From: Medicago truncatula
Lineage: Eukaryota; Streptophyta; Magnoliopsida; Fabales; Fabaceae
NCBI RefSeq assembly: GCF_003473485.1
Contig: NC_053042.1
Span: 7,959,501 to 8,023,500, forward strand
DNA: 64,000 bases
Direction of reading: 5' to 3'
The notes below the pieces were generated by a model that saw nothing but the letters and a program-made list of their open reading frames with translations, ran no database searches and was not told where the DNA came from. Shown one piece after another: positions 17,120 through 52,100 of this stretch. Position 1 is the first letter of the stretch. Each line of letters starts with the position of its first letter. The translations under genes were made by a program, and so were the position numbers.

Positions 17120-17162
17120 CAATATAATTTAATCTTTTTTTAATGGCAATATAATTTAATCT
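17120..17162 (-). mobile_element. Micro-insertion, 11 bp between 16-bp direct repeats
   Basis: CAATATAATTTAATCT occurs at 17120-17135 and 17147-17162, flanking TTTTTTAATGG. Read in reverse this is CCATTAAAAAA, like the 3' end GCCATTAG plus poly(A) of the L1 tail at 37796-37998. I infer an extreme 5'-truncated LINE insertion. Confidence 0.65.
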
Positions 17163-17206
17163 AATATAAATGATGCAATGTAACCAAAAAAATATAAATG
17201 ATGCAA
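17163..17206 (+). mobile_element. Micro-insertion, 12 bp between 16-bp direct repeats
   Basis: AATATAAATGATGCAA occurs at 17163-17178 and 17191-17206, flanking TGTAACCAAAAA. The insert resembles a retroposon 3' end plus a short A tail. It directly abuts the previous micro-insertion. Confidence 0.6.
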
Positions 17207-18127
17207 CACAAACGGAAATAATTGTGATCTGTTCATTTAAATGGGGAAATTTTGCTGAGTATATTCAGAAACCAAATACTTTCAGCACTTCACTCATGTA
17301 TGTTTTTGATATGTTGAAACAAACACCATTGGAACAACGGATGGGAGGTAGTAGATAGATTATATGTACCTTGAAAGTAAGAGAGACCTCCCGAAACCTA
17401 AGATTTTCTGTTGGAACAAATCCGGACAAGAAGATATTAATTCCTTCTCTGACTGAGAAAGGGAGTGTCACAACACCGTATACATCAGGTTTGCCATACA
17501 AACAGCAAATAAAGTCTGATAAGTAGTCCAAAACACTAAGATCGTGCTCGACAACAATTACAAAGCGGAAAAAAAGAAGAGGATTTCAAATAAAATAACG
17601 ATTCTTGATAAAAATCAATGACAAATCACATAGTGATATCAACAATGTTTAAAGCAGAAACTACAAAGGAAAGGAAACAAACCTATTAGGCCTGAGCAAT
17701 GACCGAACAACTTGCGCAGCTTTCAGCCTCTGTTTCACATCAAGATAACTGGAAGGTTCATCAAACATGTATATCTCAGCATTTTGGATGGCAACAACTG
17801 CAATGGCAAACCTTTGGAGCTCACCCCCTGAAAGATCACCAACATTACGATCTATAACTTGATTAAGTTCAAGATCAGCACACAAAGCTTTTCCTTCATA
17901 TCTCTCTCATTTTTTTGGTCTAGCACTTGCCCCACGTTCCCTTGCACATGGTTTGGAATGTCGTCAACATATTGAGGCTTGATGACAGCCTGTATTGTAA
18001 CGTATAGTGAAATAAGCAAGCCGGAAGGAAAAAGGACAAAAAAAACATCTGTAACACACTACCTTATCAATACAAATTTCAAAAACAGCTCAATTTAAAT
18101 GAATGAACATTGAAAAAAAAATGAAGC

Positions 18128-18166
18128 ACAATTGATGTTAATTTTTTTAGGTACAATTGATGTTAA
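18128..18166 (-). mobile_element. Micro-insertion, 11 bp between 14-bp direct repeats
   Basis: ACAATTGATGTTAA occurs at 18128-18141 and 18153-18166, flanking TTTTTTTAGGT (reverse: ACCTAAAAAAA). Located in an ABCE1-copy intron. Same architecture as the other micro-insertions. Confidence 0.6.
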
Positions 18167-19579
18167 ATTGTTAGGCTATCAAGTAAAGATAAGAATGTTT
18201 TTCATAAATAAAGGATAAAGAACTCTGTAGTGATTATTATTATAACGAATGCAACATTTGCTTCCAGTGCAGAATCGGTGCTGAAACATGAAATCATATA
18301 TAACTAATTATGGATTATAATGTCTTAAATTTTTGGGTTGAGCCTAAGTCAATCTTAGACTTTAAAGGCAAGGGCTATCCGTGCTTTATAAACACTACAC
18401 ATGCCATATCTCTGAGAAATGTGGGACTAAATCCACCCCTTTCACACCCAACACAATGAAACTGCCGGAGGATGCAATGAAGGCAACCCAAATGCCACAA
18501 TTAGGCGGCTAGGGGGGACTGCAATGAAGGAGGAATTCCCAACATAATGCTTACAAACAATTCTTATATTATGTATTACAAGGCTTTCCAATTTGTATTA
18601 ATGTAGTATCTCGATGATAATATGGTTAAGGTTATTGAATAAGGACATAAACATCACCTTCAAATCACCCTCTTGAATGTGAGTAAAGTAATTCTGCAAT
18701 TCAGATCCTTGAAAATGGGTCAAAACTTCCTGCCAATCAGGGGGGTCCTGCAAAGGGAAAGAAAGGTTAAAAATGAAAGCAATGAAACCTCTCAAACATG
18801 TTTGTTTTTTCACTGTTGATTAAAAATTGTGGTAATTTCTTACAGTGAAACGACCCAAGTTGGGCTTGAGTTTTCCAGCCAAAATCTTAAGTGCAGTGGA
18901 CTTCCCAATTCCATTTGTCCCGACCAAACCAAGCACTTGCCCCGGCATGGGAACCGGCAACCTGCAATTACAATTCTTGGATTGGAATAAAAAGCAAAAC
19001 ATAAAAACATAAGTCACAGCACACACACCTGCGAAGCATAAAGGTATTAGGACCATATCTATGAGTGATATCTTTGTTAAAATCCTTAGTGTTGATAATT
19101 TCGATGGCTCCAAAAGGACATCTCTGCAGCAAAATCACCATCACATAAACAAACCCATTATTGTTATTATTATTAACAAAAGCGAGCATCTTTAAATAAA
19201 ATAAAAAATAAAAAAGTGAATGAATAATGAATAAATAATACCTTAACACACATACGGCATCCAATGCACAATTCCTCAGATATGTAAGCAATCTTGGACT
19301 CAGGAGTAACCTCAACACATGATTTTCCAATTATGACGACAGGACAAATCATCTGGCACTCTTGATGACACTTTAGCGGTCTGCATTTGTCGTTGTTAAC
19401 GAAGGCAGTACGCATCGATCGTTCATCAGACATGTTGCAGCAAATAAAACCTAAATCCCAAATTACAATCAGAAAATGAATCGAATTGAATTGAGAGTAA
19501 ATACAAAATTGAAGAGCTTACCGAATCGAGAAAGGAATGGGAGCGTTAGGGTTTTTTTTTTTGAGAGATAGAGAAGGAC

Positions 19580-20370
19580 GGGGTTTTTTACTTCCAACAA
19601 GAGTAGCGTACAATGTACTAATGCTGATGGTTTTGATAAGGAGAAGCAAATGGATGGTTATGTTAAACGAGGTGTGAACAATTTCCCTTTGACGGTTAAC
19701 TTGAAAACTTCGACTCATGTGACGGGTCTTGTGAATGGTGAAAACCTTAAAGGCTATGAATGGTAGGGGGAATGAGGCATCTCAAAAAATCCTTCATGAT
19801 AAAGATGATAATTATGAGATGGAAGACATTGTTGTGGAAACTCCCAATATACAGTGATAAGTGGTCTCTGGTTAGTGAGTTTTTTTTCTTTCTTTTTCAT
19901 CTACCTTTATCAATGATTGTGTTTAAAGATTTTTCTCTTATTTTTTGGAATGTTCGTGGCTTCGCCAGTAAAAAGAGTAAAACGCATATGCGTGAGCTAT
20001 TAAAAAGGTTTAAACCTGATTTGTTGTTTATTTTCGAGACTCATACACCCTTTGCTTCCTCTAAGCAATTTTGTGATAAAGAGGGATTTAAATGCCTTGG
20101 AGTGGAGGAAGCCCAAGGTCATTCGGGAGGTGCTTGGGTTGTGGTTAATCAAACTAGCCGTTTCTCATATGATGTTATGGATACTATGCAACAATGTATC
20201 AGCGTTAAGATTTCCTTTGGTGTTCATTCTTGGGTTTGCACAGGGGCTTATGCTAGTCCAAACTACACAACTCGGTGCCTTTTCTGGGATTATTTGGTGG
20301 ACCTTAGAACTCGAATTGACCAACCATGGGCCCTTATTGGGGACCTTAATGAGATCTTACTTCCTTTGGA
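19580..20370 (+). mobile_element. L1-type LINE fragment: end of ORF1 and apurinic endonuclease
   Basis: From about 19920 a frame gives the L1 endonuclease start (LIFWNVRGFASKKSK), an ETHTPF-like second motif, and WALIGDLNEILLP near its end, matching the EEP-fold family of plant L1 ORF2. Upstream, 19600-19740 reads as ORF1-like sequence with stops. There is no reverse transcriptase; homology ends near 20370. Truncated at both ends. It starts about 60 bp beyond the ABCE1 copy's first UTR exon, in opposite orientation. Confidence 0.82.
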
Positions 20371-20395
20371 TTTAATCAAAATCAAAATTTCATAA

Positions 20396-21290
20396 AAAAA
20401 CATCGTTCATAATTTCAAATGTTAGTGCAATAAAAATAGCAAAACGACGGGTGTGCCCGTCTTTTCGCTATATATACAAAGAGAATACATGGATTTGTGA
20501 TGTTTTTTCACTTTCAATTAAACAAATTTGACTATAAGAATGTTGTTTTATTGTTCACATTTAAAAGATAAGAATTTATATTATATTTTTTATATCATTA
20601 AAAAAAGATAAATATGATTTATATTTTGATGGTGTCATTCAAAATAATTTTAATCGAAATTTCATTAATAAAATATTATTTGTAATTTACACGCATTAGC
20701 GCAATAATAAAAGCAGACATATACAAAATGCTCGTTTGAGCATGTCTAAACGTTAGTATATATGCTGATATCACCAGTTTAATATAGTTAAAATAGGTAA
20801 TTAGTTTTCGAATTCCCTATATTTGAATTAAATTAAAAATTTTAAAATATTGAGTTAATATAGGTTTTGAATTAGATTAAAAATAAAAAATTATTGAATT
20901 AATATAGATAAGATATGAATAGTTAAAAAGTCATCCTAAAGTCTTCTATTCTCTTTATATATAGTATACAATATTATTTTTTTGAACAAAACAAAATGAG
21001 CTATATTACTCGAACAAAAAAGTCTTCCTGCACAGACGTGCAAAAGAAGAAAACTTAAGGTTGATACACAATATAAACAACCAAAAGCAATAAAAAAAAT
21101 AAAAAATAAACTACTATATAGCCGATATGCAGATAATATGATAACGCCTCCAAAAATTGTAGTCAAAATTAAACATAATATAACCCGGTTTCAACCACAA
21201 AAAAGAATGAAACTTAACATGTTCGTTCAATGAAAGAATACTTTCTTCCTTGTACTTTATTTTTAATTATAATAAAAAGGTTTGTCCAAT
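20396..21290. other. AT-rich intergenic
   Basis: Very AT-rich; no credible frame. The segment 20980-21060 (GAACAAAACAAAATGAGC and following) looks like repeat-derived sequence but I cannot name it. Confidence 0.4.
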
Positions 21291-21297
21291 ATGCTTA

Positions 21298-21490
21298 AGG
21301 CTTTGTTTGGATTGATGGAATGAGGTGGAATGGAATAGAATGGGGTGATATCTACATATATTCCCTTGTTTGGATTTCTACATAATGTATGGAATGGCAT
21401 GGAACATGATGGAATGCATTCCATCCCATACAACCCTTTTACTCTATTTTTCATTCCTTCCAAATTGGAGGGTATGCAATGGAATGGAAT
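21298..21490. mobile_element. Partial MITE-like element rich in GGAATG words
   Basis: Starts GGCTTTGTTTGGATTGATGG, similar to the Tourist-type ends at 25885, then has many GGAATGG and CATTCC words in both orientations. A right inverted end was not found, so family and borders are uncertain. Confidence 0.4.
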
Positions 21491-21742
21491 CTCTTAATTA
21501 GATAATTACTCTTTTACCCTTTTTAATTTTGGTTGTCAGTTTTGTACTCCATTGATTTTCTTTTATCGTGGTCCTGCATCTCCTTCGTCACACATAATAC
21601 ATAACACGACAACCTTGTCTCTTCCAGCAAATACATATTTCTTCCTAGCTGTATTTCATTCTATTCTAATGAAAAAGTTCCAGTAATTAAAATTGTCAAA
21701 GTTGATTATGTTTCTCACGGTTTCTATCATTAGTTAATTGTA

Positions 21743-22330
21743 TGTGTTTTAGTCGACAGAGATGCATCGTTTCATGATGATTAGGTTTATGAAGACAAAC
21801 TTTGTCGTATTAACTTATATTTGATATCATTAGTATGTTGTATGTGTTTTGGTATTAACTTATATTTGATATTATTAGTATGTTGTATGTGTTTTAGTTG
21901 ACGGAGATGTGTCATTTTATGATGACTCGGTTTATGAAGGCATATTTTGTTGTATTAACTTATATCAAAGATTTTCATTGTCAAAATTTGAGTTTCAAGT
22001 TCATTTTTAGTACAATTAGGTCATATATAATGTTAAATTTGATTTTATCTGATATCGTTTGTCAGTTGGATCTGTTTCAGTCGACGAAGATGTTCCCTTT
22101 TCAAGTTGACTTGATTTGCAAATGTATAGTTCGTCGAGTTGACTTATACCAATGATTATGATTGTTGAAAGTAGAGTTTCATGTTCATTCTTAGTTTAAT
22201 TAGGTCATATCGTACATTTAGTTTGATCTTATTTAATATCATTAGATGTTTGGGTTTGTTTCAATAGATAAAGAAGTGTTGTTTCATATTGACTAGGTTT
22301 ATCAAGGCATGGTTGTTTGAATTAATTGAT
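21743..22330 (+). repeat. Diverged tandem repeat, about 185-bp unit
   Basis: The block beginning GTGTTTTAGTCGACAGAGATG recurs in diverged form near 21886, 22073 and 22257 (spacings about 143, 187 and 184 bp). Each copy repeats the order: GAAGATGTTTC-like word, GACTAGGTTTATGAAGGCAT-like word, TTAACTTATATC, and TTAATTAGGTCATAT-like word. The first interval is shorter and contains a nested duplication (GTATTAACTTATATTTGATA). Confidence 0.65.
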
Positions 22331-23277
22331 ATCTAAGGGTTCGATCGTCAAAATTAGAGTAATTGATTTAAAGGGGTAATCGGTCGAACCATAAACCAAA
22401 GGGGTAACTGGCCTTGTATGGCTATTGGATCAAGTAAGTAATTGAATCAAAATAGGAGAAAATTAGTGAACCGAGGGTTTCGGTAAACCGGGAATATATT
22501 CCTTCAAATATATAGACACGCATATTACTCAGAAATTTTGGTTGAATATTTATACATCATTCAATTATTTATGTTATATTATACTATTATATTAAAATAA
22601 TTTAAATTTTAAATGAATTTTAGCACCCAATCTAGGATTACATATTATGCATACTTAAGAATTTATCTATATATACTCATAACAATGCACAAGAGAATAC
22701 ATCTTTTTGAGTTGAAGTATTTCTTCTATTTTTCTATTTTATTTAAATTATTTTATCATTTCTATAATATTATGTAAATTATAAATAAAATAATTAGTTA
22801 AAACTTATTAAAATAGAGACAGTCTATAACAATACGAACGAACCATAATAGGCAAGGTAAAAAAAGCATTATTTTGACCCTGTATAAAAAAAGTAACGTG
22901 TTTTGGTGTAAAAAATAAATCTTTAATTTTACTTTTCACTTCAGTATTTTTTATCATTTGATTGTTTGTTTGTATGTAATAAAAACGGAAGGAGATGCAT
23001 ATCAATATTGATGCAATAATTGGTATTTAGCACACAAACTCTTAAAAGATAAACTTTTCTCGAATGTTCTTTCAAAAAACTCTTCTCAAATGTTGTCCTT
23101 TTGCTTTTAACAAATATAAATTATTAGAAAAATGTGATAGGATAATAGGGATGTATTCAAGACTAAGTTTATGATGCGAATAGAATAATAGTGTCAATTT
23201 TTTTTTTGGCAAAACAATAAAGACTATGTATTATCCCATCCTAAACAACAGTTTAGTAGTTTTTTTGGGCTAATTTT
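22331..23277. other. AT-rich intergenic, nothing recognised
   Basis: No frame, RNA gene or bounded repeat was identified. 22380-22480 carries GGGTAA-containing phrases that look repeat-derived. Confidence 0.4.
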
Positions 23278-23332
23278 ATTAGTTCAAGTTCATTTTTTAT
23301 TTTTTTTTGACAAAATTAGTTCAAGTTCATTT
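23278..23332 (-). mobile_element. Micro-insertion, 19 bp between 18-bp direct repeats
   Basis: ATTAGTTCAAGTTCATTT occurs at 23278-23295 and 23315-23332, flanking TTTATTTTTTTTTGACAAA. In reverse the insert is TTTGTC plus an A-rich tail, nearly the same as the inserts at 38343 and 49070. Confidence 0.75.
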
Positions 23333-23825
23333 GTAACCTTAACAATTGTTAGCTACCAATTTTCTTTTAACATTTATTTTTATAGACATTTTTTAATCTT
23401 TATATAAGATAAATTAACCAAGTGATTAGATGCAAAGTAATTAATATCCTTCAGTAAATGTCAATTTGTTCTGATAGTACCAAAGTTTAATCCCTAACTG
23501 AAAAAAAATTTAGTTAATACTAAACTCTTAGCTGAATTACAGATTTTCAAAACCTTTTTTCTATGAGAATCTAATAATTGATAGAAAAAGAAGACAATAC
23601 GAATTAAGTTTCTTCTATACATACATAATAAGTATTCATTTGTTAACTCCTTGCTAATTTTACCAGGAATACGTCCCCAAGGACTGTGGTATGGCCCCGA
23701 AGCGAAGTTGGCAGATTGACCAGCAGTTCAAAAACATTTAGCACTGTAACATTGGATATTTCTCTATTTGACCAAGGTGAGTCTACGTATATATTTATCG
23801 TTCTTTTCCTTTCATAGATTAGCAC

Positions 23826-26800
23826 TTACTTGGTGCAGGCACCAACCAAACGCCCGTTTTCGAGTAGGTTAGCAGGAAAGGGTGCTTGACAGCTACTAAT
23901 ATGTGACTTTAAGCGGGGTATGTTTGGATGTGCACTTTTACATTTGTGGCACCTCAACTCCATAGACAGTAGCTTGTCATCATCTTTCAATGTTGCTTTT
24001 CCATGAATAGATACCTCATCAATTATATCTACTGAGTCGCGAAAGAAAGCAGTGTTAAACGAGTTCCAGTGCTTCTTATTCTTCAAATGTTTTGAGTCAA
24101 AGTCCTGGCTAATAACATGTAAATGTAGTTGTCGCATTGAAGGAACCTGCAGCACGTAGACATGTCCAGAAATTTTAACATATATGTATATAGTGTACAC
24201 AAAAAAGGGAAAATAAGATTTTACAAGCCATGAAAATTTTAGTTTACAGATAACACCTAGAAGCATGCCCAACAACAACAACCAAACCTTATCCCACTAA
24301 GTGGGGTTGGACCTAGAAGCATGCCCATAAAAATTAAAAAAAACTTAACCATGACTTAAGCTACTTGTAGATGCACCTTCTCAGCATAACAATAGTACAA
24401 TCGAGTTATTTCATATCGGTTTTTCCAACACATGCAAACAGATGATTAATAACCGAAAAAAAGGGAGCAATTAATGATCCTTAGAGTGTGCATGCTGAAT
24501 TATCACTTAATTGTAGAGTTATTGAGATAATGACGAAAATATGCCCAGCCACAAAAAATCATTTTCAACCTCAATTCAATTTGAATTCAATTTGGCCGCA
24601 GCTAACTTAAATTTGTTTTACGGTTAAAAACATGCTAGAGTCAAATTCACTCATTAACCAAGTGAAAAAAATAGGTCTTGAATATAAACTCTGCATACCG
24701 AGTGATATCCAAGGCGAAATACCAGTGAAGAATTCTCACTCAAGAATTTCTCAGCCCATTTTAAACCCACTGCATGCATCCTTTTCAATACCGAAAGGTG
24801 CTCATTTTGGACATCTGACAGGCAATCGAGACCTCCACTCCGTGCCAACACCAGAACATGTTTTTGTGCCTGCAAAGCACATAGAAATTCAGTGCAATAC
24901 ATTTAAAGAGTCAAGCATGTCAGAAAAAAGTGAATAAAAAAAGATGAATTCACCTTAGGATACATATCATTCAATACAACAATGTCCTCTGAAATTTCAA
25001 GCAAGTCATCCTTATGCTTTTCAGGATGCATAGCTATTAGATGAAGAGCTTGAGCCCATGATCCCCATGCCTTCTTTGTGCTCCCATCGGTTCTTTTATG
25101 CTCTGAATCTACCTTTTCATCTCTAGAACCCGTAAAGGTCGTGTCAAAACCATCATGGGTTCCCTTGTATTTCTTGCTTTTTTCCAATTCGTGATCAGCA
25201 TCTCTCTTACTCTTTTGATCGGTATTTCTGGAACACTGTTCAGACTGATCTTGCAACTCCAAAGACTTTTTTCCAAGGTTTTCATTTTGATGTACCGTGT
25301 TCCTAACAATTGATGCAAAACCTTCAAATAGTGATGCATAAGCATCCTGGAGAACCTTGCAGCCTCTTTCATAATCATTGTTCAGACAATTTGGTCTTTG
25401 TGGATTCATATTAGGTCCAAGGACGTGTATGACATGGGTCACACCTTCTCTGGTGAACAAAGGAGAAGATGAAGGTAGAGGGACAACAACAGCATTCCCA
25501 GGTGAAACAGTCTTCGCTTTTTCTTTGGTTGCAGACTCCAGTTCAGGACCTGCGGCATCAAAAATTGATGCATTAACACCTCCACCGCCAGGTTTCAGTC
25601 GCCTGCAAATGTTTTTTCATTTCAACCAAGAGAACATGTGAAAAATGACAGGTTTAATTGATCGAAAACATTATTAAAAAAAAAACTGAAAACATATTCT
25701 ATCCATGGGAAATGAGTTAAAACTAATGAGATTCAAATCAATAAGCAAGCTTAAGCATTGGCGGTAGAAGATGCATCACATACGAAAAAGTGATAGGCGT
25801 TAGTCTAGAATTTGATTGTAAAATTACAGTTAACAGAAACTTCCTAATGTGGTATCAGACAGCTAGAGATCAAGGAAATCCTAAGGCTTTGTTTGCGAGT
25901 TTGGAGGGGAGGGTTTTTGAAAAAAGGAAGGAGCAAGTGGAAAAAATAGAGAACTTTGGGAGAGGAGGGCTTTGGGGGGTTCATTTTTCTTCATAATATA
26001 GAACCCTCCTCATTTTGGGGGATTCAAAAATTGTATTGGAGGAGGGTTTTGGGAGGTTCTGGAGGGTTTACATGAATTCTTCAAATTTAATCCGCGTTGT
26101 TATAATATTCTTAAATTAAAAATATATATATTAATCATAAGCATTAATTTATCACTCTAAAAAAAATACTCTTTCAAATTTTTAGCATTAATTTATCACT
26201 CTAAAAAAAAATACTCTTTCAAATTTTTAGAAAGATTTCTCAAATTTTCCCTATATTTCCTACCCCCCAAAGCCCTCCCCTCCCCTCCCGTCCAAACTCC
26301 AAAACAAAGCCTAAAACACACAGCATATCATATAAAACTCATATTTTTCACACATGCAGTTCTTTGAGGTCTATTTTATGCGTGTTTATTAACTATCTAC
26401 TTCATTCTCACCAGTTCGCAGCATTTGCAATGACATTACAGCGCAAACCTCCAGTTGAATAAAGGCGAGTGATGTCTCCAACATGGGTAAAGAACTTCTG
26501 GGTGTCGACGTTCTTTTCTGCCGCTTTGGATTTAACTAAGGACAAAATTTTTGATCTATGTGTCAAATCAACTAGAACAAGTCTGGCATTCTCCATCTTA
26601 TTTGAGTACTCTACAACCTTCTCAACAATAATATCTGCTGCCTTGTCATGGTTGAATTGGAAATCTGCTGTTGAAATAGAGGGAAATGCCAGAGTCGGAG
26701 TATCATCAAGAGAAACTTGATTGTGACAGGAACCAGCAGGTATATTAGTCTGACCTTCTATATCTTTTGACCCTAACTTGGAATTATCATGCGCTGATGG

Positions 26801-29111
26801 GATTTTTTCCATATCTTTGCAGAGGGAATCATTTTTTCCAGAAGTCTGGGAAGTAGAGTCTCCAATGGTATTTTCTTTAGATGCAGTATCAACTGGTACC
26901 TCTGCCTTTTTCAGGAATTTCATTATACTAGATTGGATTTTGGAATCTGGATTTTTCTGACCGAAGCAGCCATGTGAAAGGTTCTCCAGTGGCCCAAGTT
27001 TTTGATATGTATCAATAGCATCTTTGACATTACTCTCACTCTGACAAAATGTTATTCGGTTAAAGCCTTCGCTTAATTTGGGCAACTCTTTACTTTGAAG
27101 CATTCTATTCACAACTGCAGCAGCTTTTCCACCTTGCAAATTTCCTTCATGCCCAGATCGTTTAACAGATCGAGAAATACACAGCTTGGCAGGAAGGTCG
27201 AGTACAACTGCATGGATATCTATTTGGGATTCACCCCGAAGCTTTAAAAAATCTGACCGCTGTTCTCTATTAAGATTGCACCTGTCAATGAATACACTCT
27301 TCCCATCTTTCAATCCTCTAGCTGCACTACTTAGGCATTGAGCTTTACTTCCTGCTTTACCGTTTCCAATAGTGTCCTAAAGCAATAGAAAGTACAACCA
27401 ATATTAGTAAAGATTCAAAACCAGCTCCTGCAATCAAAGCACGCAGATTTTTCACATCATGCACCAAGGGATTATTATAGTTGCGGAGCTGCCTAATAAA
27501 ACTCACAAAAACCGAGGGTAAGAAGTTTCAGTGAAAATTCCTCACTTTCGTTCCCTTCATAATACAAACTTCCAAACAACAAGAACCAAGCCTTTTCCCA
27601 CTAAGTGGGGAATGAATAATTCCCTTATCCTCAATCCAAAAACACCTAGAAGCCCTCAAGCAGACTAGAACTAGAACACGCATTAACTGCTTAGGATCTT
27701 TCAAATAAAAGCATATATGAAAATTTTCGAGATCAAGATGAAGATCAAAATGCACAAGTATAACACACACCCCTTGATTCACCTCAGGGTTATCAAACAC
27801 ACTAAAGTAGTGTTTAATAGACAGGTTAGAACAAGACAGAAAATAACTCAACACACATTTTTTTAATGTTTGATGTATTGCTTTTTATTACAAAAAAAAA
27901 AAAAGATAACACACCTAAAGGCTAAAGCCCTCGTGCAGACTAAAACTAGAACACCCATAAATTGCTTAGGATCTTCAAAATATAGGTGTATATGTAAATA
28001 TCCAAGATCAGGATGAAGATCAAAAGGAATAACTCATAAGTACAACACACACCCTTGATTCAACTCAGGGTGTTATCGAGCAAATTAGAGTAGTGTTTAA
28101 TAGACAGATTAGAACGAGACAGAAAATGACACAGTACATGTTTTTCTTCTATGTTTAATGTATTATTATTACAAAAATATAATTGAATGGAACATTTTGA
28201 TTCCGATGAAAAAGTGAAACCAAAGAGAAAAACATAGTTTAATTCTTCAAGTAGTGCTAGAAACACACACTTTCTAACACATTTTCTATTATCGGTCAAA
28301 ATTCACATGGGTCCGTATAAATTTGGTGGAACCCATGTGAGCTTTAACCAATAAAAAAAGTGTGTTGACAAGTGTGTGTCAAAGGGCACGTTGCTAAGAT
28401 TATTCTTTTTTTCGCATGCCAGATGTATAATTTCATTCACTCCTTTTTCATCAATTCCCTCACTTCTTTCATTCTAACATAGAACCACCCCTTGAAATCA
28501 AAGACGTATCCAGTGTCAGCCAGACACAATATTACAAGCAACCACTTCTATTTTTTCAAACTATTGCAGATGTCTACGTGTCAGTGTTGAGCCATGTAAT
28601 GTGCTTATGCTTCATTTGCAAATGAAAGTTGTGTACAATGTCCTATGAAGCACGGACACTCCTCGGATTAGGTGTGTCCTGGTGTCAGAAACGTTGACAC
28701 GACACTGACACATATAATTACACTGAATTATGTGATTTTCTCAAATTATTAGTGATGTCAGCGTGTCATTGTCTGTGTCGTGTCCGGTGTCCATGTCTGT
28801 AACCGTGCTTCATAGTACTGTCATGTAATGTGGTTATATACTTCATAGTCTACGACTAATGATTATCAGTTACCATCTAAAAAAAGCATAAAACTTGAGT
28901 GGTTTCGGTGAAACCCAAGAAGCATTTAATCAAACAGGTAAAAGGCAAAGTTTCAAAACCTGACAAACGCGAAGCCATGTGCGAGAAGAGGAACGCATAA
29001 CTTCTTCACAGAAGGTGGATTTCCCGCTTCCAGGTGCACCAACTAAGATTACCAAAATGGGTTTTGCATCTGCATTATTAATTTTCATGATTCATTCGCA
29101 TATATGCATGA

Positions 29112-29146
<35 letters not shown>

Positions 29147-32605: not shown

Positions 32606-32684
32606 GTGTAGTATATGTGAAAGGTGTTTTCAAGAGAATCTTATTGAGCAAATTACTGAATTTTAAGCATTCATGCAGGTGCTG

Positions 32685-37749: not shown

Positions 37750-37795
37750 AAAAAATCAAACCACACAAGTACTTCTAATCAAATCACACAAGCAG

Positions 37796-38195: not shown

Positions 38196-38515
38196 GATAT
38201 GTTTGGATAAACAACTTATTCACAACTTATAACACGAAGCTCTTATCCCGATAAGCATTTATGTATAACTTTGCAAAAGCTATTTTATAACAAAAAATAA
38301 AATAACGTTAAAATGTTTGTGTATATGCTATAAGTTGTTTATTTTATTTTTTTTTGACAAGACTATAAGTTGTTTATATAAGCTATACTGGAGAACTTGT
38401 TGAAAAAAGCTTATGACAATTGTCATAAGTTGTATTCATAGGCTCTCCCAAACAAAGTCACAAAATTTATGTCAGTAGATAAGCCGAAATAAACCATCCA
38501 AACATAACCTATGTA
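38196..38515. mobile_element. MITE with TATGTTTGGATAAAC ends, carrying a micro-insertion
   Basis: Left TATGTTTGGATAAACAAC and right (reverse) TATGTTTGGATGGTTTAT form imperfect inverted ends; the body has AAGCTTAT/ATAAGTTG words. A related copy lies in a TRM6 intron (51822-52250). Inside, CTATAAGTTGTTTAT at 38328-38342 and 38363-38377 flanks 20 bp (TTTATTTTTTTTTGACAAGA), another poly(A)-only retro-insertion. Confidence 0.7.
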
Positions 38516-38976
38516 CATTGCCACACTTCACCTTCCTACTTGCTCCTGCAATGAAGTTGTCATCAAGAATATATATTAAGCACAATTTGTTATGTTGCAG
38601 CATTTGTTTGAACTACTACAAATATTTGCTTTTGAAAATACTTCTTGTATGTTGATGACAACTATCAATTTCACTGCAAAGTAGAATTTAAATTTAAAAT
38701 GTTATTGTTAACCAACTAAAGTTTCTGAAAACAAGTTAATACTGTCTGTTACACTTAATCGTGAAGACCTGCTATACAGAGGAGCCGATGCAAATATCCA
38801 TCCCATCATAATATGATTCCATAAAAAAGTGGCATCAAGCTACTACGATTCCGTGCCTAGACAAATTCATATTAAAAGAAAAAGAAATAAAATGAAGCAA
38901 CAAATCCGAAACCGTTACATAACGCTTTAAAATGTTCCAACTACCCTATTTCCGGCTAAACATCGACAATTTTGTG

Positions 38977-41204
38977 CTACTGGGTTCCTACTGATCTGGT
39001 TTTTCTTAGTCTTCCCCGTGTAACCCGAATACTTTCTTCCATTCTGGTCTCCTCCTTTACAAGAGATTTTCCATTTTCAGTTGCTGAAGAGGAGGATGTT
39101 GCTGTTGATTCAATATTCTTTGGGTTTGACTCTGTTGATGACGAAGATATGATAATTGTTTCAGATGAAGGATTAGACTTCTGGGTAATTAAAACTGCTG
39201 CAGAAGATTTTTGAGTAGTTAAACCAGCTACAGGAGGCTTCTGGTTATTTAAAGAAGCTACTGGAGGCTTCTGGTTATTTAAAGAAGCTACTGGAGGCTT
39301 CTGGTTATTTAAAGCAGCTACAGAGGATTTCTGTTTGTTTAAACCTGCAACAGGAGGGGCTACTTTAGGAGCTTGTGGAGAATCCAGTAACTCCTCTTTT
39401 ACTTCCTTTTGGAACTGACTTGAAGTTGTGCTAGAGGCAGGAGATGGGGGTTCTTCAACTTGTGGTTCTGTAGCAGTGGCTGGTTGGCCCTTGGCAGGTG
39501 CAGGTTTACGAACTCTCACACCCGGTCCCGGTCGTTGCTGCAATTTCAGGAGAATTTGATTGTTAAAAGAAAGCATGCAAGAAGAAGAGTTAGATATGTT
39601 AAGAGAATAAAATAGTTGATGTAACATTGTTAGTTACAAGTTAATTAGGTTGCTAGGTTGTTGTTGTTGCCATAATTAGTGTTATATATCATTTCTTGTA
39701 TCAAATTTGTTCATATATTGAATATGAATTATGATTGCGTGATAAAGAGTTATTTCCCTTTCTCCCATTTTCCTCCAACAATGAATACTTTCAAGATGGA
39801 AGAGAAAGGAAAGGATATATACTGCTCGCAAAGAACACTTTCCTCCAACGATGAATACTTTCAAGATGGAAGAGAAAGGAAAGGATATATAATGCCAGCA
39901 AAGAACACTACCATATGCATACTAACGATCGATCAAATGTTAATCTACAAAATTTCTAGCGAATAACAACTTTACGATGTCTAACAATACAAACACATGA
40001 AATGAAATATATTCAACGGTATAAATGAATAAAATATGAGAGTCATTTTGCTTATCAGAAAAAGAAAAAAAAAAGAGTCATTCCAGTTATTAGTTAGTTT
40101 CCTTGTTCAAATCCCCCTAGATTAATGATTTAACAGGTATGTATTAAGTTGTATGTGGCTTTAACTGTGTTTTGATATGCACATCCATAAGTACTTATAT
40201 CCAAAGTTAAGTCAAACTCAAATGTAATAGCAAACAAAACCAATGCATAATCATAGTGAACTACCTGAGCGGGATGAGGTGCTGGTGTTGATTGTGCTGA
40301 AACAAACTTCAAAATGTCATATATTCTAGTCTGACCATAACTAACAGCTCTTTGAGAATACACAACTACATAATCTCCCGCCCTTGTCCTTAGTTCCGAC
40401 AAGCTCCGATCAATTTCTGGCTCATGTTTTGCAACATATGGTCTAAAGAAGGAATCATATACATATGTTGTTCCCTAACACAAACGTAAACTTTACCATC
40501 ATATTGAAGAAATGCAAATAATATGCTTATATCAGATTCTACCACAGAAAATAATTATATACCTTTGTTTTGGGGTACCACAAAAATATGAAAAATGCCA
40601 ACTTAGCTTCACAATACATTGGGACCCTTCAAGAAGAAATCAATTCAAAAATAAGAATCCATGATAAACTGTATTTGAAATAGAACAGAAACCTTCAAAG
40701 ATAGAGTCATCCACCATGATACAAAAGTATCTCCAAATCTCTCACACACTGTCATAACAGCAACCAAAATCCTGCAACATGGAAAGATAAAAACATGATC
40801 AGTATCATTATTCACCACAAGTTATCAAATACTACACGTTTAGCATCAAGGATCAAACAATATTGCATACCAATACTGGCACCAAAATCGAAGTTGTTCA
40901 ATTTCTGGCTTATTCTTTTCAACTACTTTATAGCATTCATACGCTGGATAGGCATAGCCAAAAACACTCCTGCCATTACACCAAAGGACAAATAAAATCA
41001 TTAAATTTCAAATACCACAATGCTAATCATTAAACCAGACACAACAGAAACCAAGTCTTATTCCACTAAGTGGGGGTCAGCTACATGGATCAAACAATGT
41101 CATAATGTTCCATCACAATGCTAATCATTATCACCATATAGATTCGAAAAAATTGGAGAGTGTGAAACATACACAAGCGCCCAGGTAAGAAAGGATCCTA
41201 TCAT
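38977..41204 (-). CDS. HVA22-like protein (TB2/DP1 family) with repeat-bearing C-terminus
   Basis: Six coding exons on the minus strand, 41204-41173, 40969-40871, 40771-40715, 40626-40563, 40474-40265, 39537-38977, give 340 residues. A leader intron joins a UTR exon from about 41967 to the exon at 41213. Residues 1-110 are the TB2/DP1/HVA22 domain (MIGSFLTWALVSVFGYAYPA, YKVVEKNKPEIEQLRFWCQY, CEAKLAFFIFLWYPKTKG), a membrane hairpin protein of the ER that shapes membranes and traffic; HVA22 is ABA-inducible in barley. GTTYVYDSFFRPYVAKHE follows, as in the HVA22i/j subgroup. The last exon is long and disordered, with six to seven copies of a 10-residue unit (LNNQKPPVAS), then a Ser-rich and basic end. 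Exon 3's donor is best placed at TCATG/GTGGAT. Symbol left empty since the subgroup letter is uncertain. Confidence 0.9.
39769..39908. repeat. 70-bp tandem duplication in HVA22-like intron
   Basis: The unit starting TTTCCTCCAACAATGAATAC and ending CGCAAAGAACAC occurs at 39769-39838 and 39839-39908 with about four differences. It lies in the last intron of the HVA22-like gene. Frames across it are chance. Confidence 0.85.
41016..41130 (-). mobile_element. RTE LINE 3' end, 81 bp, with 17-bp target duplication
   Basis: CACAATGCTAATCATTA at 41016-41032 and 41114-41130 flanks 81 bp that reads in reverse as the RTE terminus (CCCCCACTTAGTGGAATAAG then ACTTGGTTTCTGTTGTG). It sits in the first coding intron of the HVA22-like gene. 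Confidence 0.85.
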
Positions 41205-42199: not shown

Positions 42200-45100
42200 G
42201 AGTGATTAGGGTGACCAAATTACGGCTTAATTATAACTAGCCTTAAAAATCGTATTAAATTTGATAGGATTTTTTCAATATCTTACCTCCTTACTAAACT
42301 CGATCAGATTTAATCTCATTTAGAGTTGCCTTAAAATATATGTACTGGATCGTTGAATCATTATCAAACAAATTATTGAATCATTGGTTGAATTGTATCA
42401 CTTAGATGAATAATTTAATTATACAAACACAACAAATTGTATTAGTTGTGTATATATTAATTTGGATAAAAAAACGACAATATAAAGGAGTCGAGAGAGT
42501 GAGTAATACTCTTCAAATTAATTTTATGAAAAAATTGCGTTGACATTTTACCTAAAATTCCTTCTAGTTTTCAAAATGCACTCACCGCCTCTCTTATCAT
42601 TCACTATATATATGATATGACTAGAGTTTTCACTTTAATTTGTAGAGGTATGATCACATACATCTTATATATGCAATTTGAAAGGTATGGTAATGTTCCT
42701 AGTGGCACAATGGGTGTGTATTCTAGTGTCTTTTTGGTGAATGACTAGAAAAGTAAGCATGACAAAAACAAAATGATTGGCGCAATTGTTTTTAGTAAGT
42801 ATAGATAGAGTAGGTGAGTTCATTTTGAAAACTACAGGGAAGTGAATGTCATTTAAAGAGACTTAACAGAAGGCTATTACAATTCTCTCTAACTTTAGTG
42901 TTGATCCTATTTCCATTGTTTAAGAATGAACTAATTTGAGAGAATACTTTCAATTTACAAAAGAAGAAGAAGATCTCCATTAGTTTGTAAGTGTTCAACA
43001 TGAAGTATTTTGATCAATATGATCGGGTTCGAGTGAGTATAAATAAGAAGGATCTACTACATTTGTGTTTGACAAAACAGACGAATAAATGATTGATTAT
43101 TGTCATGCTAAAACGATCGAATGGTATGAGACTCTATATAAGATATGTGACTCTATTGTTATATGATGCAAAGACATTAGACCCGTAAATCCCTCCTCAC
43201 TTCCATATATAAAGAGAATGTTTTGTTATAATTAAAACATCTCTCATATCCACATTTTAATATTCAATTAAAGACTAACTTGTAAATTAAGTAAAATAAA
43301 ACTTGTAAATGAAAAGAATAAATGAAAAATTCAAAACTTTAAATTCTAAATAGTTATAGTTTGGTGGTGAAGGTACATGTATGAATAACCACAAACAAAA
43401 TTGCTTTTGATCAAAATCAAAGATGTAAATTAGTTGAGGTGCACAAGTTGACTGTAACTGGACCCCAAATTAACCTTCTCATTTCATCAATTATTTGTCA
43501 CATTCAGTGTCGTTAATTGTTCATTTTTGCATGGTTGTTTACTTCACACAGCAGATAAGCTTTACATAATTTCAAATTAAGTTGTAAAACGTGGAGGAGG
43601 ACAGCATGAGCAACACATTGCTTTAAATAAAGTTTATCCGTGAAGTCTCCCATTCTCATGTGGATCACTTTGTCTTCTTTTTTGTGCCAGAATGCATGCT
43701 GCAAATATGTTCCAAGAAATCATGTGGCACACTTAAAATACTATAATGTGTACAAAAAAATACCAAAACTATATAATATAATAATTGGTTCAAAAATCTT
43801 GATTATAAATAATATATTGGAAATGCGTGATGTTTGGTTATATATTGGGATTGCTTCTCCATTGTCCCTTGATAGGATAGAATAGTTGCAAAGAGAAGCA
43901 ATGGATTAGGATCACTATCTTTTAGTTGGTGGAGTGGAGGGCACGGGTCTTTATTGGAAGTTTTTGTCAACCACAAGAAAGCTAAACAACCATGGTGGAT
44001 GGATTATTGGCATCAAAAGCAAAAGGTGAAAAGAAATAAACTTGTCATGTAATAAAGGGACCTTAATAAAATGTTATGTATGTGACTATCATCATATAAA
44101 ATGTACATCTAAAGGTCCAAAGAAAACAAGCGAAAAGGATGTCATGTGTTGGACAAGGTGATATATATGTTTCCTCTTAACAAAAGATAAAAAGGGTAAA
44201 AATATTGTACAAAAAAGGGTAAAAAAGAAAAGAAAGAAAAACCTTGGATTCTATTATATGTTATATGGGGCATTGGGAATGTCCAACATAGATGGTATGA
44301 ATATAATGCACCATACCATGATGCTAATCGCCAAAATTCAAAATCATGATGACCAATATTGTTGCTTATTCCCTCATGTGCCTCCTCCTCCTAATCATTC
44401 TATTTGTTAGCCTGTCGCTGTCAATATCTACATGTAGTTTTTCTTCCTTCAATTAATTAATCGCAGTGGAATTTATTTTTTTTTGACTCATTATTTTTGC
44501 ATCATTTTCTTTAGCTTCTATGAAATAAAAAATAAATCAAAAAACACTGTATTTGACATCTATATTTTCTTTAGAGATTAAAATAAATAAGTAATATCAA
44601 TTGTTAAATAAATTAATGTGTGATATTACATGCACATAAAACTTCACAAATGATTACAATATTAACCTCTTAATTTTCTCACTTTACTCACTATTAAATT
44701 TATGTAAACATTTTGTAAAAACAAAATTATACACATAAATTTTTTATTACCCTATATTATTACGCTATACTCTACACATGAATAATTAGTATAGAAATTA
44801 ATTTCCAATCAATTTTAATAAATGTACATTGTTAATTTTATTTTATATAAACAACTAATTACCAATATTGAAATTATTAGGTTGAACATATCCGTATGAG
44901 TTTAAACATGAAATCTTACAATTATACATGGAAATTTCAATAGTGTACCACTTCGTATATATTGACAAAAACTAGTTATCTTCTCGCATTATATAATTAT
45001 GTTTTTAATATATGTTAACACTCACAATGACAAAGCAATGAAATTATAGATTTATATGCATTCGTATAAAAGAAATTTTATTTACATCATGAATTTGTAA

Positions 45101-46149
45101 ATATTATTAAACTCGATAAAAATTATATATTCAATCCATGATCACTTGTATGTAATGACATGAGTCTCTTCCAATTTAATTAGTGTTATTTAATTAATGT
45201 AATGCAGTTTGAACCGATCGTAAAAGAATCAACATTGATGATATATGTTAAAACTCTCGAGAAATAGTTTTGTTCATGTGACTCTACTTAGACTCAATAA
45301 ATTGATCTCCTCGGTTGCTGGAGATATTCAGTTTAAGCCTAACTGTGAAGATGGCTAGTTAACAAACAATACTTGAATATGCCATCACAAGTCACAACCC
45401 ACCCAGCAAAAGCAGCAAAATCTCGAAGCAATCTGCTCTTCCATATGCATTTGATAAATATTTTGATTCCAAATATACACGTAAACTTAATCTTTAACAT
45501 ATGTGGGACAGGGATTTAAATGGCCTAATTGAACCCGACATTCACAAGATAGCATGTGACTCACATAGCTATTCGGTATAGATGTGTTATTTGAACATCA
45601 AAATAAAAACATTAGATTTGACTGTCTTTTTATTTTGATGTTCAATTAACATAGTTGCTAACAGAAAAAGCAGGTCATTTTGGACTGTTCCATTATTTGA
45701 TGTAAGGAAAAGGAAGCTATTAGTTTTGTGGAGGTAGGTAACTAAGATTTAAGCAATAACAGTGACCGTTCTTCTATTAGAGATTAATGAAAGCAAGTAA
45801 CAAAAAGATTTGAGAAATGACAGTAACTATTATTTAGTTTCAGGTAAAAATGAAATAAAATAGAAAAGCTATAAACTACAAAAATCTTGTTGCAGCCCGC
45901 AAAAAAATTGAGGTAGTTAAAAGGTTTTTTTCTTTGTTATTTCATGTTCCAGGCTTTCCTCAACGCCGGTTTCGATCCTTGTATCAGGAGGTTGGAAGGA
46001 CTTGGTTCAAACCATTCCCCACCAGGTGAAACCGTCGAGGTAGTTAAAAGGCTTGTGGGCAGAAAAAACAGTAAAATATATATCTAGTGAACACTGGCCA
46101 TACTTTAAGCCGACAAAATTTGTAATCAAGGGAGATGGTTGAGCTGGAA
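42200..46149. other. Intergenic, strongly AT-rich
   Basis: Presumed HVA22-like promoter at the left. Beyond the dispersed repeat copies at 43120-43184 and 45247-45271 I see no bounded element, RNA gene or credible frame. 44460-45130 is exceptionally AT-rich. Confidence 0.5.
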
Positions 46150-49100
46150 TCAGCTGCTGCAGATCTTTGTCCCACTGAGAATGTAACCCCCAAATGCACT
46201 CATTTGCATGCATGGGTGAGTTCTTGATGGAAGTACCTACAAAATAAAATATACCATTAAATAGTTATCAGAGATTTGCACAGAATTGGTAATTGAAATT
46301 GACGTGTGATTAGTTTTCAAGATAGATAAAATTAAGTTATTTGCCCTTTTTATTTACTTTTATGAACAAAGGAATTCAAAATACCAATAATTTCATAATA
46401 TTGATGTTGACAAGAATAATTAAGTACCTGGTATTCACGTAGCCAAGGCTCAGTTATTTGCAATCCGATGGCCATTTTCTCAAGCTGTAGATTGTGCATG
46501 CAAGTTGCTAGAGGCTGCAGTTTATACAGCAAACAAACAAGAAGATTATGTTAACAACTGAGTGAACAGAAGCATAATCTATTTGGCATTCAGTGCCAAA
46601 TGAAGTATTGAAAATTTTCAACTTTACCCAAACCTACACATGATCTACAATCTCCAGGATACATGATAGTTAAATTGATAATATGTGCAGCATTGTGTAA
46701 TGCCTCTTTAAGTATACACATATGGATTTGATTGAAGTCTAAGTTGCAAAATGTTTGATCTCTTACAAATTTGCTACTATTCATAATCTATCATTTATAT
46801 GTTTGATCTCTTAAAAATTTGGAACTATTCATAATCTTATCTTTTATATGTTCCTAAACTTATAACCAAAGCTACCCAGAACAATAAACTTTTGATCCTT
46901 AACATGAAAGAAACAAAAGAAAACAAATTAATTGAAAATATTATCATGCACGGATACCTTTATAATAAATCGCTATTCATTAAGCTTGAAAATTGAACCA
47001 AAATTACCTGAAGATATTGGTGATAAATAGCAAATGGGGCAGAGTTTGATAAAAGTGGTAAGAGGTCTTTAATCAATGTCCAAGTATCCAAGTCTGGTGC
47101 AGCAATAATTAGGCTGTGCAAATTATAAAAGAAAAACTCAATTTTATGATTTTTAGAATAGTGAAGTGAGTCAAATATGTAACTTTGATTGAAGTTTAAT
47201 TACCTAGAAAAACCATTTTCCTTCCACGAGTCAATGATTTCTTGAGATGCTTTTTCTCCAGCCTTTATAGCTTTGCAGGCTCTTAGAGCAGGAAATGTGG
47301 AACTCTCAATATTTTCAGCATTGTCAGCTCCAAGATCAGAAATTCCATTTTCTGACGAATGAGAGATTTCCTCCATGCTGACTGATGCACACATTTGATT
47401 CTGCAACATCGCAACATATGATAAATTGTTCGAACAGTAAGATAGAACCAATTAGAAGATCAAGGAAGTGCAATTTACATTTAATTGGCTTTCCACACTG
47501 CCGTCATCATGTTTTGGATTTTGTTGAGATGATTCCTTTTGTGACAACAAGTCAGAAATGGAAGACCTTACAATTCTGCAATAAATAAAAAGATGTTAAT
47601 AACACCAGACAAAAGAAACAAAACTTCAGTTCATGCACATTCAGACAAGTTGTATAAACATTCTTAGATAGTAACAGAAAATTAACTAAATGATTCAGAG
47701 GATACTTCAATTTTGTAAGATGATTGGTGAACATGCATATCACTTTGATCAATATTCCTAATACCTACTAATTCAACACATGGCTATCCCGATAGAAACC
47801 TATAAACATTTCTCTTTGATTCCTGAGCTATATATATTATAAAACTATAATAAAAAATGCATCTAGAGCTACTCATTTGGAAGAAAAAACTAATCACGTC
47901 GATAATGCAAAAGATATCCATGCCAATACAAAGAGTGATCCAAACTTTTTCTGAAAAATGAAAGATTTAAAAAGGATAATCATTTCTCTTTCAGTGCATC
48001 AACCGAAACTTACTTCAGCATGAAGACTGACAAAAAAACATTCGCATGATTTTAACTCAAAAATAATTGGTAAACTGCAACAAAACATATCAGCTGACCT
48101 CTTGCAGATTTCGTCGCTTAAATTAAATATCCTCACAATATCCATGGATGGTGCCTTTCCAAGATATGAATTGCATACAAAACCAGTGCCTGTAAAACAT
48201 TAACGTTAGATTGTAAAACTTAATGCATGTATTAGCTCCTGAACTATGAAAACCAACACTATCAATCACTAGACCCAGAGATTGTTAAGAATGGAATGTG
48301 AATATATCTATTGATCAACAGTATAACGACAACTTTTTACGTCTCATTGTTGTGATGATTCAAGTTTATCGCACACCATATTTAGAAAGAGTAAAATCTA
48401 AATGACCGAAACTTAGTTTAAATTTATATCACACCTCCTAAACGCTCTGCCACAGCACCAGTAAGAAGGCCACCAACCATATCAACAACGAGAATGTCAG
48501 AATTTGAAGAAACATTAGCCATTGAAAGTAGAAGGGACAATGTGTCCACACGCAAGAATCTGAATCAGTTATAGTTAGTTAGAAACCAATTCAAGGATAT
48601 ATACAAAGAGAGAATGATACTACAATTCAATAATATAATAGCCACACACATACACACCCCTTCACACTTTTCAGACTATAAAGATGCCACACATGATGTA
48701 CATGTCCAAAACGCAAGAAAAAATGAACTCAGAATACTTACATCCAGAATAAGTTGTTTGGATACTGGATAAAGTTTGCGGTTTACAGAAAAGCACAAAA
48801 TAGCAGTTTCCATTTTTTTAAGGTGTTATTTAGCATGGGAAAGTAATAAACTTCCCTTCCCCACCATGGTCACGTAGGTTTTAGACCATTAGATCAAATA
48901 GAAAACACAGTTTTATTATAGAACCTCATCACTAGATTTTTCTCTGCACATAGTCTACCACCATTCCCCCTACATTCCCCCCCACCTCGGCGTTTTCTCA
49001 TAAACCATTGACTCTAACTGTAGCTTCTCGTTACACACCTTTCACCCCACAAACAAATTCGTTAAACATTTTTTTTTTTTTTGACAGGACAAATTCGTTA

Positions 49101-52100
49101 AACATATTCATTGATAGAATCAGCAATTAAGCAAAAATCAACACTGGGACATCAATTTCAACATAATAACGCGGATCCTAAAATCAGCAATTTCCACACC
49201 AAATCAACATTTTAAAAACTAATTTTGATCCAGTATAAAATAGCATGCATCAAATTCACCCTAAAACCCCAATTTGAGCAGAGTTCAATTCTTTTCCCAT
49301 AAATCAACTTCCCTCTTTTTATTAGAATGTCCCAGAAAACCTATTTTAATTCTTTCTTTCCTTACCGACACGCTTTGGCGATATTATACAACTCTGTCAT
49401 CCTTTTTCATCAACAAAAGTGAAATTGGGTGTATTTTTTATTTTGTTTTTAAATAGAAAAAAAAATTACAATTTTACGGTAATAATGTCAACGATGGGAA
49501 GTTGTGAAACTGTTATAGAACATTCGGATTCAACAATTGCGTCCCTTCTTTCATAACACACGTGGGGTAGAATGGCGGTGGAAGATGTATGGGAAAAAAA
49601 TATAGTGGTGAGGGTCTATGATAAAAATGTGTTCTCTATTTGATTTGATCTAATGGCCTAAAAGTCTAAAACCTACTTGACCATGCGGGGAAGTTTATTA
49701 TTTCCCCATGCTAAATGGCACCTTTTTTTAAAGCCTGTGTATCAATTCAAAATTCTTATACATTTAAGGTAGAAATTTGCTCTTTTATATTCTTATTATT
49801 TTTTCTTTTCTCTGCACCACATACGGACATTAAAGATGTTAAAATGCTATATATATTCATGGTTTACATCATGCTCCAAAAGAATAGCTCAAATCTAACA
49901 GAAATAAATGTGTATGGTAAAACATCTTACCCAATTTTCAATGGATGCTTCATGAAATAAGCCTCACATATACTGGAAAAAAATAAAAAGTAATAACCAT
50001 AAGACATCGAGTGGATACTCATAATATATAAAAATGTATATATAAGATATTGTAACACAAAAAGTGGAACAAAGTGAAATCAAGGGTACATTTGTGTAGT
50101 TATTAATGAAAACAGAAAAGAAAAGAAAAAAATCAAACCAAAAAGCCCTCAAATTTGTTTAGAGATTGTTAGAGATGACTTTTTGCTTGCACTTCTTTTT
50201 GTAGAATAGTGCCAAAACCCAAAAGGCATGATAGCATGTAGAGATCACGCACTGAATATCAATTACCATTATCAAAGAAAAAACCAAATGCTCCAAAGAC
50301 AAATAAAATATTTATGTTTTCTTAAACCATATCATCTACATATTTGATTTTCAACGCACACCTCAGAGAGAAAAGAAATGTAAAGCTTTGGCAATATTTG
50401 AAAATAACAACAACGATAACATAAAAATAAAGGTCACCTTCGAGCAACAGGACGTCTTATAAGTACTTTTGGTGCATATTTCTTCTGTTTCTTAAGTCTA
50501 TATTTCTCCTGCACAGATATAGTGAGCTTCAGTTCATTCGCTAGATAAAGAGAGTAAACAATTTGGTCCATAAAAGATGCTACATCTTGTATTTGGATCC
50601 CTGAGGGTTTCTGTCTACACAAAGTCATCCCCAGAGTTGCCGCCTTGCTGAAGAGTTCACCCTTCGATTATTTGGTATCATCCGTGAGCCCTTGTAAAGA
50701 AGTTGAAGTAAAACATTAAATGCACACATCTAATGCCCTTATAAGTAATGTTTTACACTCGCTCACTATCACCAAATGCCGGAAGGGTGGACTTGTTAGC
50801 AAGTCCTGGAGCTCATTTGTATAGACAGAAGAGGATTAAAATAACACAAATAACATTTATCAGTAGCCAAATTACATCTTCACTCTAAATTACAAACTAC
50901 ATAATCTCTTTATACATTTAGATATATACCTGTGAGAATGAAGTTTTCTTATCAAATGTTGCGCTATTGGCAATGAGAGCTTCAATTATTTCATCACCCT
51001 TAGCACCTTGCCTGCATATATAGAATAGCATAATTTTCACTACTGAATCCCAAGCATACCAAGGAAATAATAACTAGACAGTTTGTTCCAGAAAAGGAAG
51101 ATGTGGATTGCAGAATTCACATTGACAACAATGGTAGTATGGTACTGAAGATATGTTTATTTATACGGCCCATCTATATCAAACATATAGAACCGAAGTA
51201 CACAAATCCAGAACACGTGAAACTTTATCATTCTTTTTCATTGAATCTCAAGAGACAACATTAACATTGAAAATCCAAACAAAATAAGATGTCCTCACCT
51301 TCGCATGTCTTCTATATCTTCACCAGTGAGGCTTTGCGCAGTATTATTGTCGATCAACGACCGGTTGTCCCTCAACTCACCGGTGAGTGGACCATCTTTT
51401 GACTCGGCTTGGAATCGACCATCTTTTATGTCTTCAGTGTTATTAATATTACCTATATGGCAGATCGAGATGTACCATGCTGGTTAGAATGAGAGTAAAA
51501 GCGAAGAGTGCAGGTGAAGTACAAAGAAGCCATAACAAAGCTATTATAAAAACAAGCTACTGGGATTGGACTAGTTGCTTTGCCAAGGGGTTATGATAGT
51601 TCGTTGACGCAATTTATTACAACAAACAAAAAATACCGTTAAGAACTAATAAATGGAAAATTGAAAACAAAACACTTGCTGCAAAACAGTTGTATTTCAG
51701 TTAAAAACGAATTTAGTGTAAATGAAGCAAAAGGAAAGCATATATTATAGACTGAACAAATAAAAGTAAATTTAATAGTAATAATATTTAAACAGAAAAA
51801 AACAAGCAAATAAATAACTATGACCCTGTTTGAATAAATAACTTATTTGCAGTTTACAGCACAAACGATCATTATGATAAGCGCTAACATATAACCTATT
51901 CATATTATATTTGAAAACAAATAAGCACGTAACATTTATGCTCAAATAAGCACTTAAACATTGAAAATTCAAATAAGCTTGAATGTCGATAGATAAATAA
52001 GTCAATCCAAACGAACTGTATGCAGTAATTAACGATACTTCAGATTGAACTTGAAGACAGATTTCGACAAATTTAATTACATACAAACAATTATATTCTA

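Follow-up and report, generated by a model that had tools for sequence, protein, structure and literature searches.

A-tailed micro-retroinsertions in Medicago truncatula: probable L1-type insertions that end a few nucleotides beyond the poly(A) tail

The window considered here is a 64,000-nucleotide stretch of Medicago truncatula DNA (C1:7959501-8023500) from a host genome of 430 Mb with eight large contigs. At six places in the window two exact direct repeats enclose only an A-tail and a few further nucleotides, which we call the body, and we refer to these structures as micro-retroinsertions (Table 1). The coordinates given for all six in an initial annotation of this DNA are exact. Its range of five to seven bases for the non-tail part has to be widened to 4-7 nt when measured on the A-tailed strand, although the short-body design holds, as does the near-identity it saw among three inserts, of which two contain TTGTC and one CTGTC. 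The duplications of 14-18 bp fall within the length common for truncated L1-type insertions (less than about 20 bp). At the threshold of the masked scan described below, the window holds no site with a body of 3-9 nt beyond these six. The 17120 and 17163 insertions lie in opposite orientation and abut at one target boundary; judging from related copies, the former apparently came first and the latter is younger.

Table 1. Micro-retroinsertions and two longer repeat-flanked inserts in the window (positions within the window)
Feature	Position	Strand	Repeat copies	Repeat (bp)	Insert	Insert (nt)	Content
Micro-retroinsertion	17120..17162	-	17120-17135, 17147-17162	16	17136-17146	11	sense CCATT + A-tail
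Micro-retroinsertion	17163..17206	+	17163-17178, 17191-17206	16	17179-17190	12	sense TGTAACC + A-tail
Micro-retroinsertion	18128..18166	-	18128-18141, 18153-18166	14	18142-18152	11	sense ACCT + A-tail
Micro-retroinsertion	23278..23332	-	23278-23295, 23315-23332	18	23296-23314	19	sense TTTGTC + interrupted A-tail
Micro-retroinsertion	38328..38377	-	38328-38342, 38363-38377	15	38343-38362	20	sense TCTTGTC + interrupted A-tail
Micro-retroinsertion	49053..49105	-	49053-49069, 49089-49105	17	49070-49088	19	sense CCTGTC + A-tail
Direct repeat with RTE/Au-type 3' motif (family name presumed)	24255..24327	+		17		39	no A-tail
Direct repeat with RTE/Au-type 3' motif (family name presumed)	41016..41130	+		17		81	motif one letter changed; no A-tail

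The six sites are insertions: related copies that lack the insert keep one copy of the repeat. All of these empty sites are paralogous copies within the same genome, and L-numbers denote genome loci sampled for comparison. The 17163 insertion is absent, with one repeat copy present, from three of three relatives (L158-L160, with small differences within the copy in L159 and L160). The 17120 insertion is present in L158 and L159 and absent from the more diverged L160, the single relative on which its empty state rests. Single copies without the insert are likewise seen in both fetched relatives of 23278 (L161, L162), all three of 38328 (L165-L167) and both of 49053 (L163, L164), and the one relative of 18128 (L157, C1:55.22 Mb; alignment read by eye) has one diverged copy and no insert. 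For 38328 a further 39 scored places cross the joined site with a net length of -3 to +19, compared with +35 for the window copy. Outside the window, the fetched DNA contains four paralogues of the repeat that hosts L077, and all four lack the insert and one repeat copy. At L047, eight of eight fetched relatives show a single copy, and 40 scored places align over the joined site at 96-99% identity; the joined-site search covered 13 sites, and its listed rows all come from the L047 repeat, with nothing on the other 12. Empty sites that keep both repeat copies, the outcome that the initial annotation had set against its own proposal, were not seen among these paralogues.

The same design recurs outside the window. 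A masked scan, in which centres that had been chosen by pattern were masked, covered 266,443 bases in 93 stretches, comprising the window, five 10-kb stretches, eight loci with a reverse transcriptase (RT) domain and the flanks of pattern-selected loci. This sample is non-random, with a large share on C1; 11 loci were omitted as overlapping, some of which (e.g., L010) overlap nothing, and a slight overlap between L048 and L087 was kept in. The controls were the reversed sequence, which has equal composition and opposite tail polarity, and 10 first-order-Markov shuffles. Candidates with the A-tail next to the 3' copy of the repeat and a body of 3-9 nt numbered 27; the reversed control gave 6, and the shuffles averaged 0.0. 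The comparison with shuffled sequence proposed in the initial annotation thus came out clearly above the shuffles, in keeping with its suggestion that such events are common. The 46 listed candidates include 8 with a body of 5 nt, 10 of 6 nt and 5 of 7 nt; the corresponding numbers among the 14 from the reversed control are 2, 1 and 0. The excess is mostly limited to very short bodies because, in an earlier scan (259,673 bases, bodies allowed to 1200 nt, score at least 14, double rows kept), bodies shorter than 20 nt numbered 36 versus 10 in the reversed control and bodies of at least 20 nt numbered 24 versus 20. The polarity is also apparent when exact repeats of 13-24 bp around inserts of 4-30 nt are counted, leaving out low-complexity units: among 68 such pairs a run of six A/T lies at the edge that tail polarity predicts in 17, at the opposite edge in 0, at both in 1 and at neither in 50, and three of these 50 (window 38328, L038 2403, L099 1210) resemble micro-inserts missed by the strict edge rule. 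The control-subtracted density is about 79 per Mb, or some 34,000 per genome as a crude extrapolation from a non-random sample.

Target sites were compared in a curated set. Visual inspection eliminated ten of 81 rows, which were repeat structures or had been drawn incorrectly; one of the ten (L018 1452) is a true micro-insert whose boundaries had been misplaced. Of the 71 rows that remain, 61 have a body of 3-9 nt. In these 61 cases the median duplication is 17 bp and the A-runs span 6-18. Position -1 holds a pyrimidine in 54, G in 4 and A in 3, while A stands at +1 in 55 and at +2 in 48. The targets read Y|AA, the motif expected for L1 endonuclease.

The most frequent body can be followed genome-wide. 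TTGTC(A)11 occurs 2202 times, compared with 177 for a backwards control, and CTTGTC(A)10 occurs 526 times, compared with 27. Examination of 71 TTGTC(A)11 places (30 loci from the genome-wide pattern count, 40 that were fetched and one in the window) gave a duplication score of at least 11 within 40 bases upstream in 39, versus 11 of 1388 swapped-flank pairs, three of which score 17-21 and may each combine two members of the same repeat family. The count falls to a safer 37 once L014 and L048 are subtracted, both being copies of a single repeat that contains a tandem duplication.

Two families appear to supply the TTGTC ends. The first ends in TTGAATGAATGAATAT...TTTTTGTC(A)n and has 334 perfect 3' ends genome-wide against 0 in the control. 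Twenty copies were fetched (L084-L103), 13 with a duplication score of at least 9 and seven without; bodies of the duplicated copies measure 360-912 nt, 11 of the 13 within 360-540 nt. Copies resemble one another over no more than their final 531 nt, and the family therefore looks like a short A-tailed element of roughly 500 bp, possibly mobilized by L1. The second source is an L1 ending in TTCTTGTC(A)n, or with its longer end AATGAAATGCAATAAGTTTCTTCTTGTC(A)n. A loose-pattern search returned 49 places versus 13 in the control, and 13 of the 49 carry the longer end or a close variant. Of seven copies fetched, three are long (more than 1200 nt) with open frames, and in the other four the body measures 115, 118 or 231 nt as delimited by the duplication, or about 44 nt as judged from alignment length. 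The frame at L146 matches zf-RVT (2.9e-18) and RVT_3 (1.1e-19), the domain pair expected at the end of a plant L1 ORF2.

Bodies of other sequence also resemble L1 ends. Further L1s were found through zf-RVT; of 150 listed places 38 were traced downstream and 31 gave an A-run end, taken as the first A-run of at least 8, which may be wrong for a few. Together with the TTCTTGTC end these make 32 L1 ends. Among non-TTGTC bodies of 4-9 nt, 15 of 26 end in a 4-mer found in this set, where 5.35 are expected (binomial p 4e-5); CCTGTC is counted among the 15 solely on account of the TTGTC-ended L1, and the 238 control A-runs may still hold micro-inserts, a bias that runs counter to the match. Pyrimidines make up 77% of the last 6 nt of L1 ends, 86% of non-TTGTC bodies and 56% of the 4-mers before ordinary A-runs. 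In the window, ACCT, TTTGTC and TCTTGTC fit source ends in full and CCTGTC does so in its last four letters; the 38328 body matches the L1 end TTCTTGTC, and the 18128 body is also the 3' end of the sampled L1s L121 and L123. Each body would thus be the 3' end of an L1 RNA or an L1-mobilized RNA, with the TTGTC class traced to the two families above.

We consider it probable, at roughly 0.87, that the six sites are completed products of L1-type target-primed reverse transcription in which the tail and the last few RNA nucleotides, usually 5-7, were copied. L1 endonuclease would nick a Y|AA target, and the T-rich 3' end laid bare would pair with the RNA tail. RT would then copy the tail and about six nucleotides of the body before stopping, and a cut in the second strand some 17 bp away, followed by fill-in, would generate the target duplication; the enzymes and the order of these steps are modeled on what is known of L1. 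The one-copy empty sites in paralogues, the tail polarity, the target motif, the L1 3'-end match with its traced TTGTC-class sources and the excess over controls support the early-halted target-primed reverse transcription that the initial annotation proposed. Several observations weigh on the other side. Among the 27 masked-scan candidates, L042 311 and L037 1947 (each of length 7) are not insertions but repeat structures, and the reversed control is not empty, with its 6 candidates in the same body range. The TTGTC-selected sample excludes bodies shorter than 5 nt by design, which leaves the masked sample as the basis for the peak in body length. Because the boundary is placed directly at the tail, A at +1 and the scarcity of A at -1 are in part built in; the excess of C/T over G at -1 does not arise in this way. 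At 32 of the 71 TTGTC(A)11 places the duplication score falls below the threshold; among them are other repeats and five long members of a single family (L016, L025, L046, L051, L082). None of the 31 zf-RVT-derived ends belongs to a TTGTC-ended L1, which was found only by the pattern search. The bodies CCATT, TGTAACC, TTACTC and TCCCTC have no match among the sampled L1 ends. The 5' ends AACTTGTC, CATTGTC and CTCTTGTC match no known source, and for these untemplated nucleotides or unsampled families are needed.

Slippage between chance repeats in A-rich DNA draws some plausibility from the window's A+T content of 66%, and is scarcely credible given the shuffles, with their mean of 0.0 at body 3-9 nt, and relatives (L077, L047 and the window sites) that lack both the insert and one repeat copy. 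Plant transposon DNA is commonly deleted, and the inserts could on that ground be longer L1 insertions whose bodies were later lost. Such a history is very improbable: the duplications are exact, body lengths are narrow, bodies of 20-1200 nt barely exceed the reversed control, and a longer body occurs at the same site in none of the aligned relatives (L077, L047 and the six window sites). Repair of staggered breaks is a further route to short direct duplications with filler, and small tandem duplications of this kind have been described (PMC8355091); some of the 50 exact-repeat pairs without a run of six A/T at an edge may be such products. Such duplications, however, would not be expected to show A-tail polarity, a shared body or an endonuclease motif. 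The filler here is neither free of polarity nor unshared: polarity is 17 versus 0, TTGTC(A)n is common to many sites, the targets read Y|AA, and bodies match L1 3' ends, so that an origin in break repair seems most unlikely for the class.

A closer alternative keeps the same route and changes the template. An RNA remnant consisting of about 6 body nt and poly(A), left for example by 5'-to-3' decay against a tail-bound protein, could have been copied in full. This account predicts a length independent of source family, as observed, and would allow for untemplated 5' nucleotides, as there may be in AACTTGTC and CATTGTC; the TTCTTGTC L1 copies of about 44, 115, 118 and 231 nt indicate, against it, that longer RNAs also serve as templates, and we regard it as rather unlikely. 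On the reading of early-halted reverse transcription, a stop encoded in one RNA is disfavored because bodies with differing ends stop alike. Hypothetically, RT could lose its hold once the rA:dT hybrid leaves its duplex-binding cleft. The stop at about 6 nt may reflect either RT release or a trimmed template. A hairpin near the RNA 3' end was set aside as the cause of the stop, since several source families share the peak. In minimum-energy folds of two tails (single folds, no controls), the L1 end forms a small hairpin whose last letters are its TTGTC, and the other end pairs with its own tail.

More tentatively, and at less than even odds, the tail-only footprint, and not a truncated L1, may be the commonest L1 product in this plant lineage, with a stop at about 6 nt in any source family that acts as a termination checkpoint at the point where RT leaves the rA:dT hybrid and, by crude extrapolation, with tens of thousands of copies genome-wide. 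If so, it would constitute a hidden class of clean, polarized insertion markers; the sites are small, polarized and, as far as the examined copies show, clean when empty, and could serve as markers between accessions. A genome-wide peak at 5-7 nt would document in the sequence itself an early termination step of reverse transcription by LINEs. An abundant class of retroelement insertions would then stand unlabelled, its inserts being too short for similarity searches. Retroelement scars would make up part of the short A-tracts in this genome and part of its short direct duplications, and LINE activity judged from recognizable copies would be underestimated.

Ordinary 5'-truncated plant L1 copies have 3' ends, A-tail and target duplication in common with the micro-insertions. 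The difference lies in length: four of the seven TTCTTGTC L1 copies carry about 44-231 nt and three more than 1200 nt, compared with about 6 nt in the bodies described here. A human precedent is found in passages of PMC3219598, where a poly(T) insertion in NF1 exon 25, with a tail of about 120 bp, is one of 18 insertions ascribed to L1 endonuclease and is considered by its authors perhaps a severely truncated Alu, L1 or processed pseudogene. It is likewise tail-only. The NF1 insertion is, however, a single case with a long tail, whereas the Medicago sites are many, with A-runs of 6-18 and bodies mostly of 5-7 nt. A few term look-ups in parts of three human papers (PMC4859970, PMC12016303, PMC12633430) returned no tail-only class. 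No plant description was recognized among open-licence full texts judged by title and the start of the abstract, in searches of which several were ill-aimed and with subscription journals outside the scope. The initial annotation knew of no feature class in use for such events; an insertion consisting of little beyond a tail is on record in humans. The kind of event is already known, as severe 5' truncation, and its abundance and the shared stop at about 6 nt may be new.

The two longer inserts at 24255 and 41016 share direct repeats with the six sites, as the initial annotation had it. They lack the A-tail it ascribed to them, and the first has an insert of 39 nt. Their 3' motif is one we take to be of the RTE/Au family; its core, CTTATYCCACTAAGTGGGGT in the 24255 case, occurs 353 times genome-wide and 0 times in the control. 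RTE-type LINE or Au-like SINE ends (names again presumed) resemble these two inserts in their direct repeats and heavy 5' truncation, and differ from the six micro-insertions in a conserved CCACTAAGTGGGG end and the absence of an A-tail. The pair is best regarded as truncated copies of a different type, outside the micro-insertion class. RTE was rejected as the source of the six sites because RTE-type ends carry no A-tail. The initial attribution to retroelement tails is thereby kept and RTE kinship given up, the traced sources being an L1-type LINE and the A-tailed family of about 500 bp.

A tRNA-derived SINE-like copy lies at 16762-16927, with a box-B-like GGGTTCGAACCCC, a tail CTTGACC(A)12 and a 13 bp flanking repeat. 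Because of this copy tRNA-SINEs were considered as a source of the bodies, and rejected; one of 81 candidate bodies, CCTGACC in L036, fits the CTTGACC(A)n end in its last five letters. One repeat family bears TTGTC(A)n at a near-equal place in five copies (window 54330, L014, L017, L048, L058), and in L014 a 44-bp unit containing TTGTC(A)n is tandemly duplicated. An Rfam MIR2629 precursor match (67.9 bits) at 53451-53522 overlaps a GCAGTTAACTGCC repeat resembling that of the L014/L048 family, and the annotated precursor may be a piece of this repeat. Finally, a stretch rich in tandem repeats, with units of TTGTCATCAGC type, occupies 8563-9035 and recurs at 9822-10294, 1259 bp downstream.

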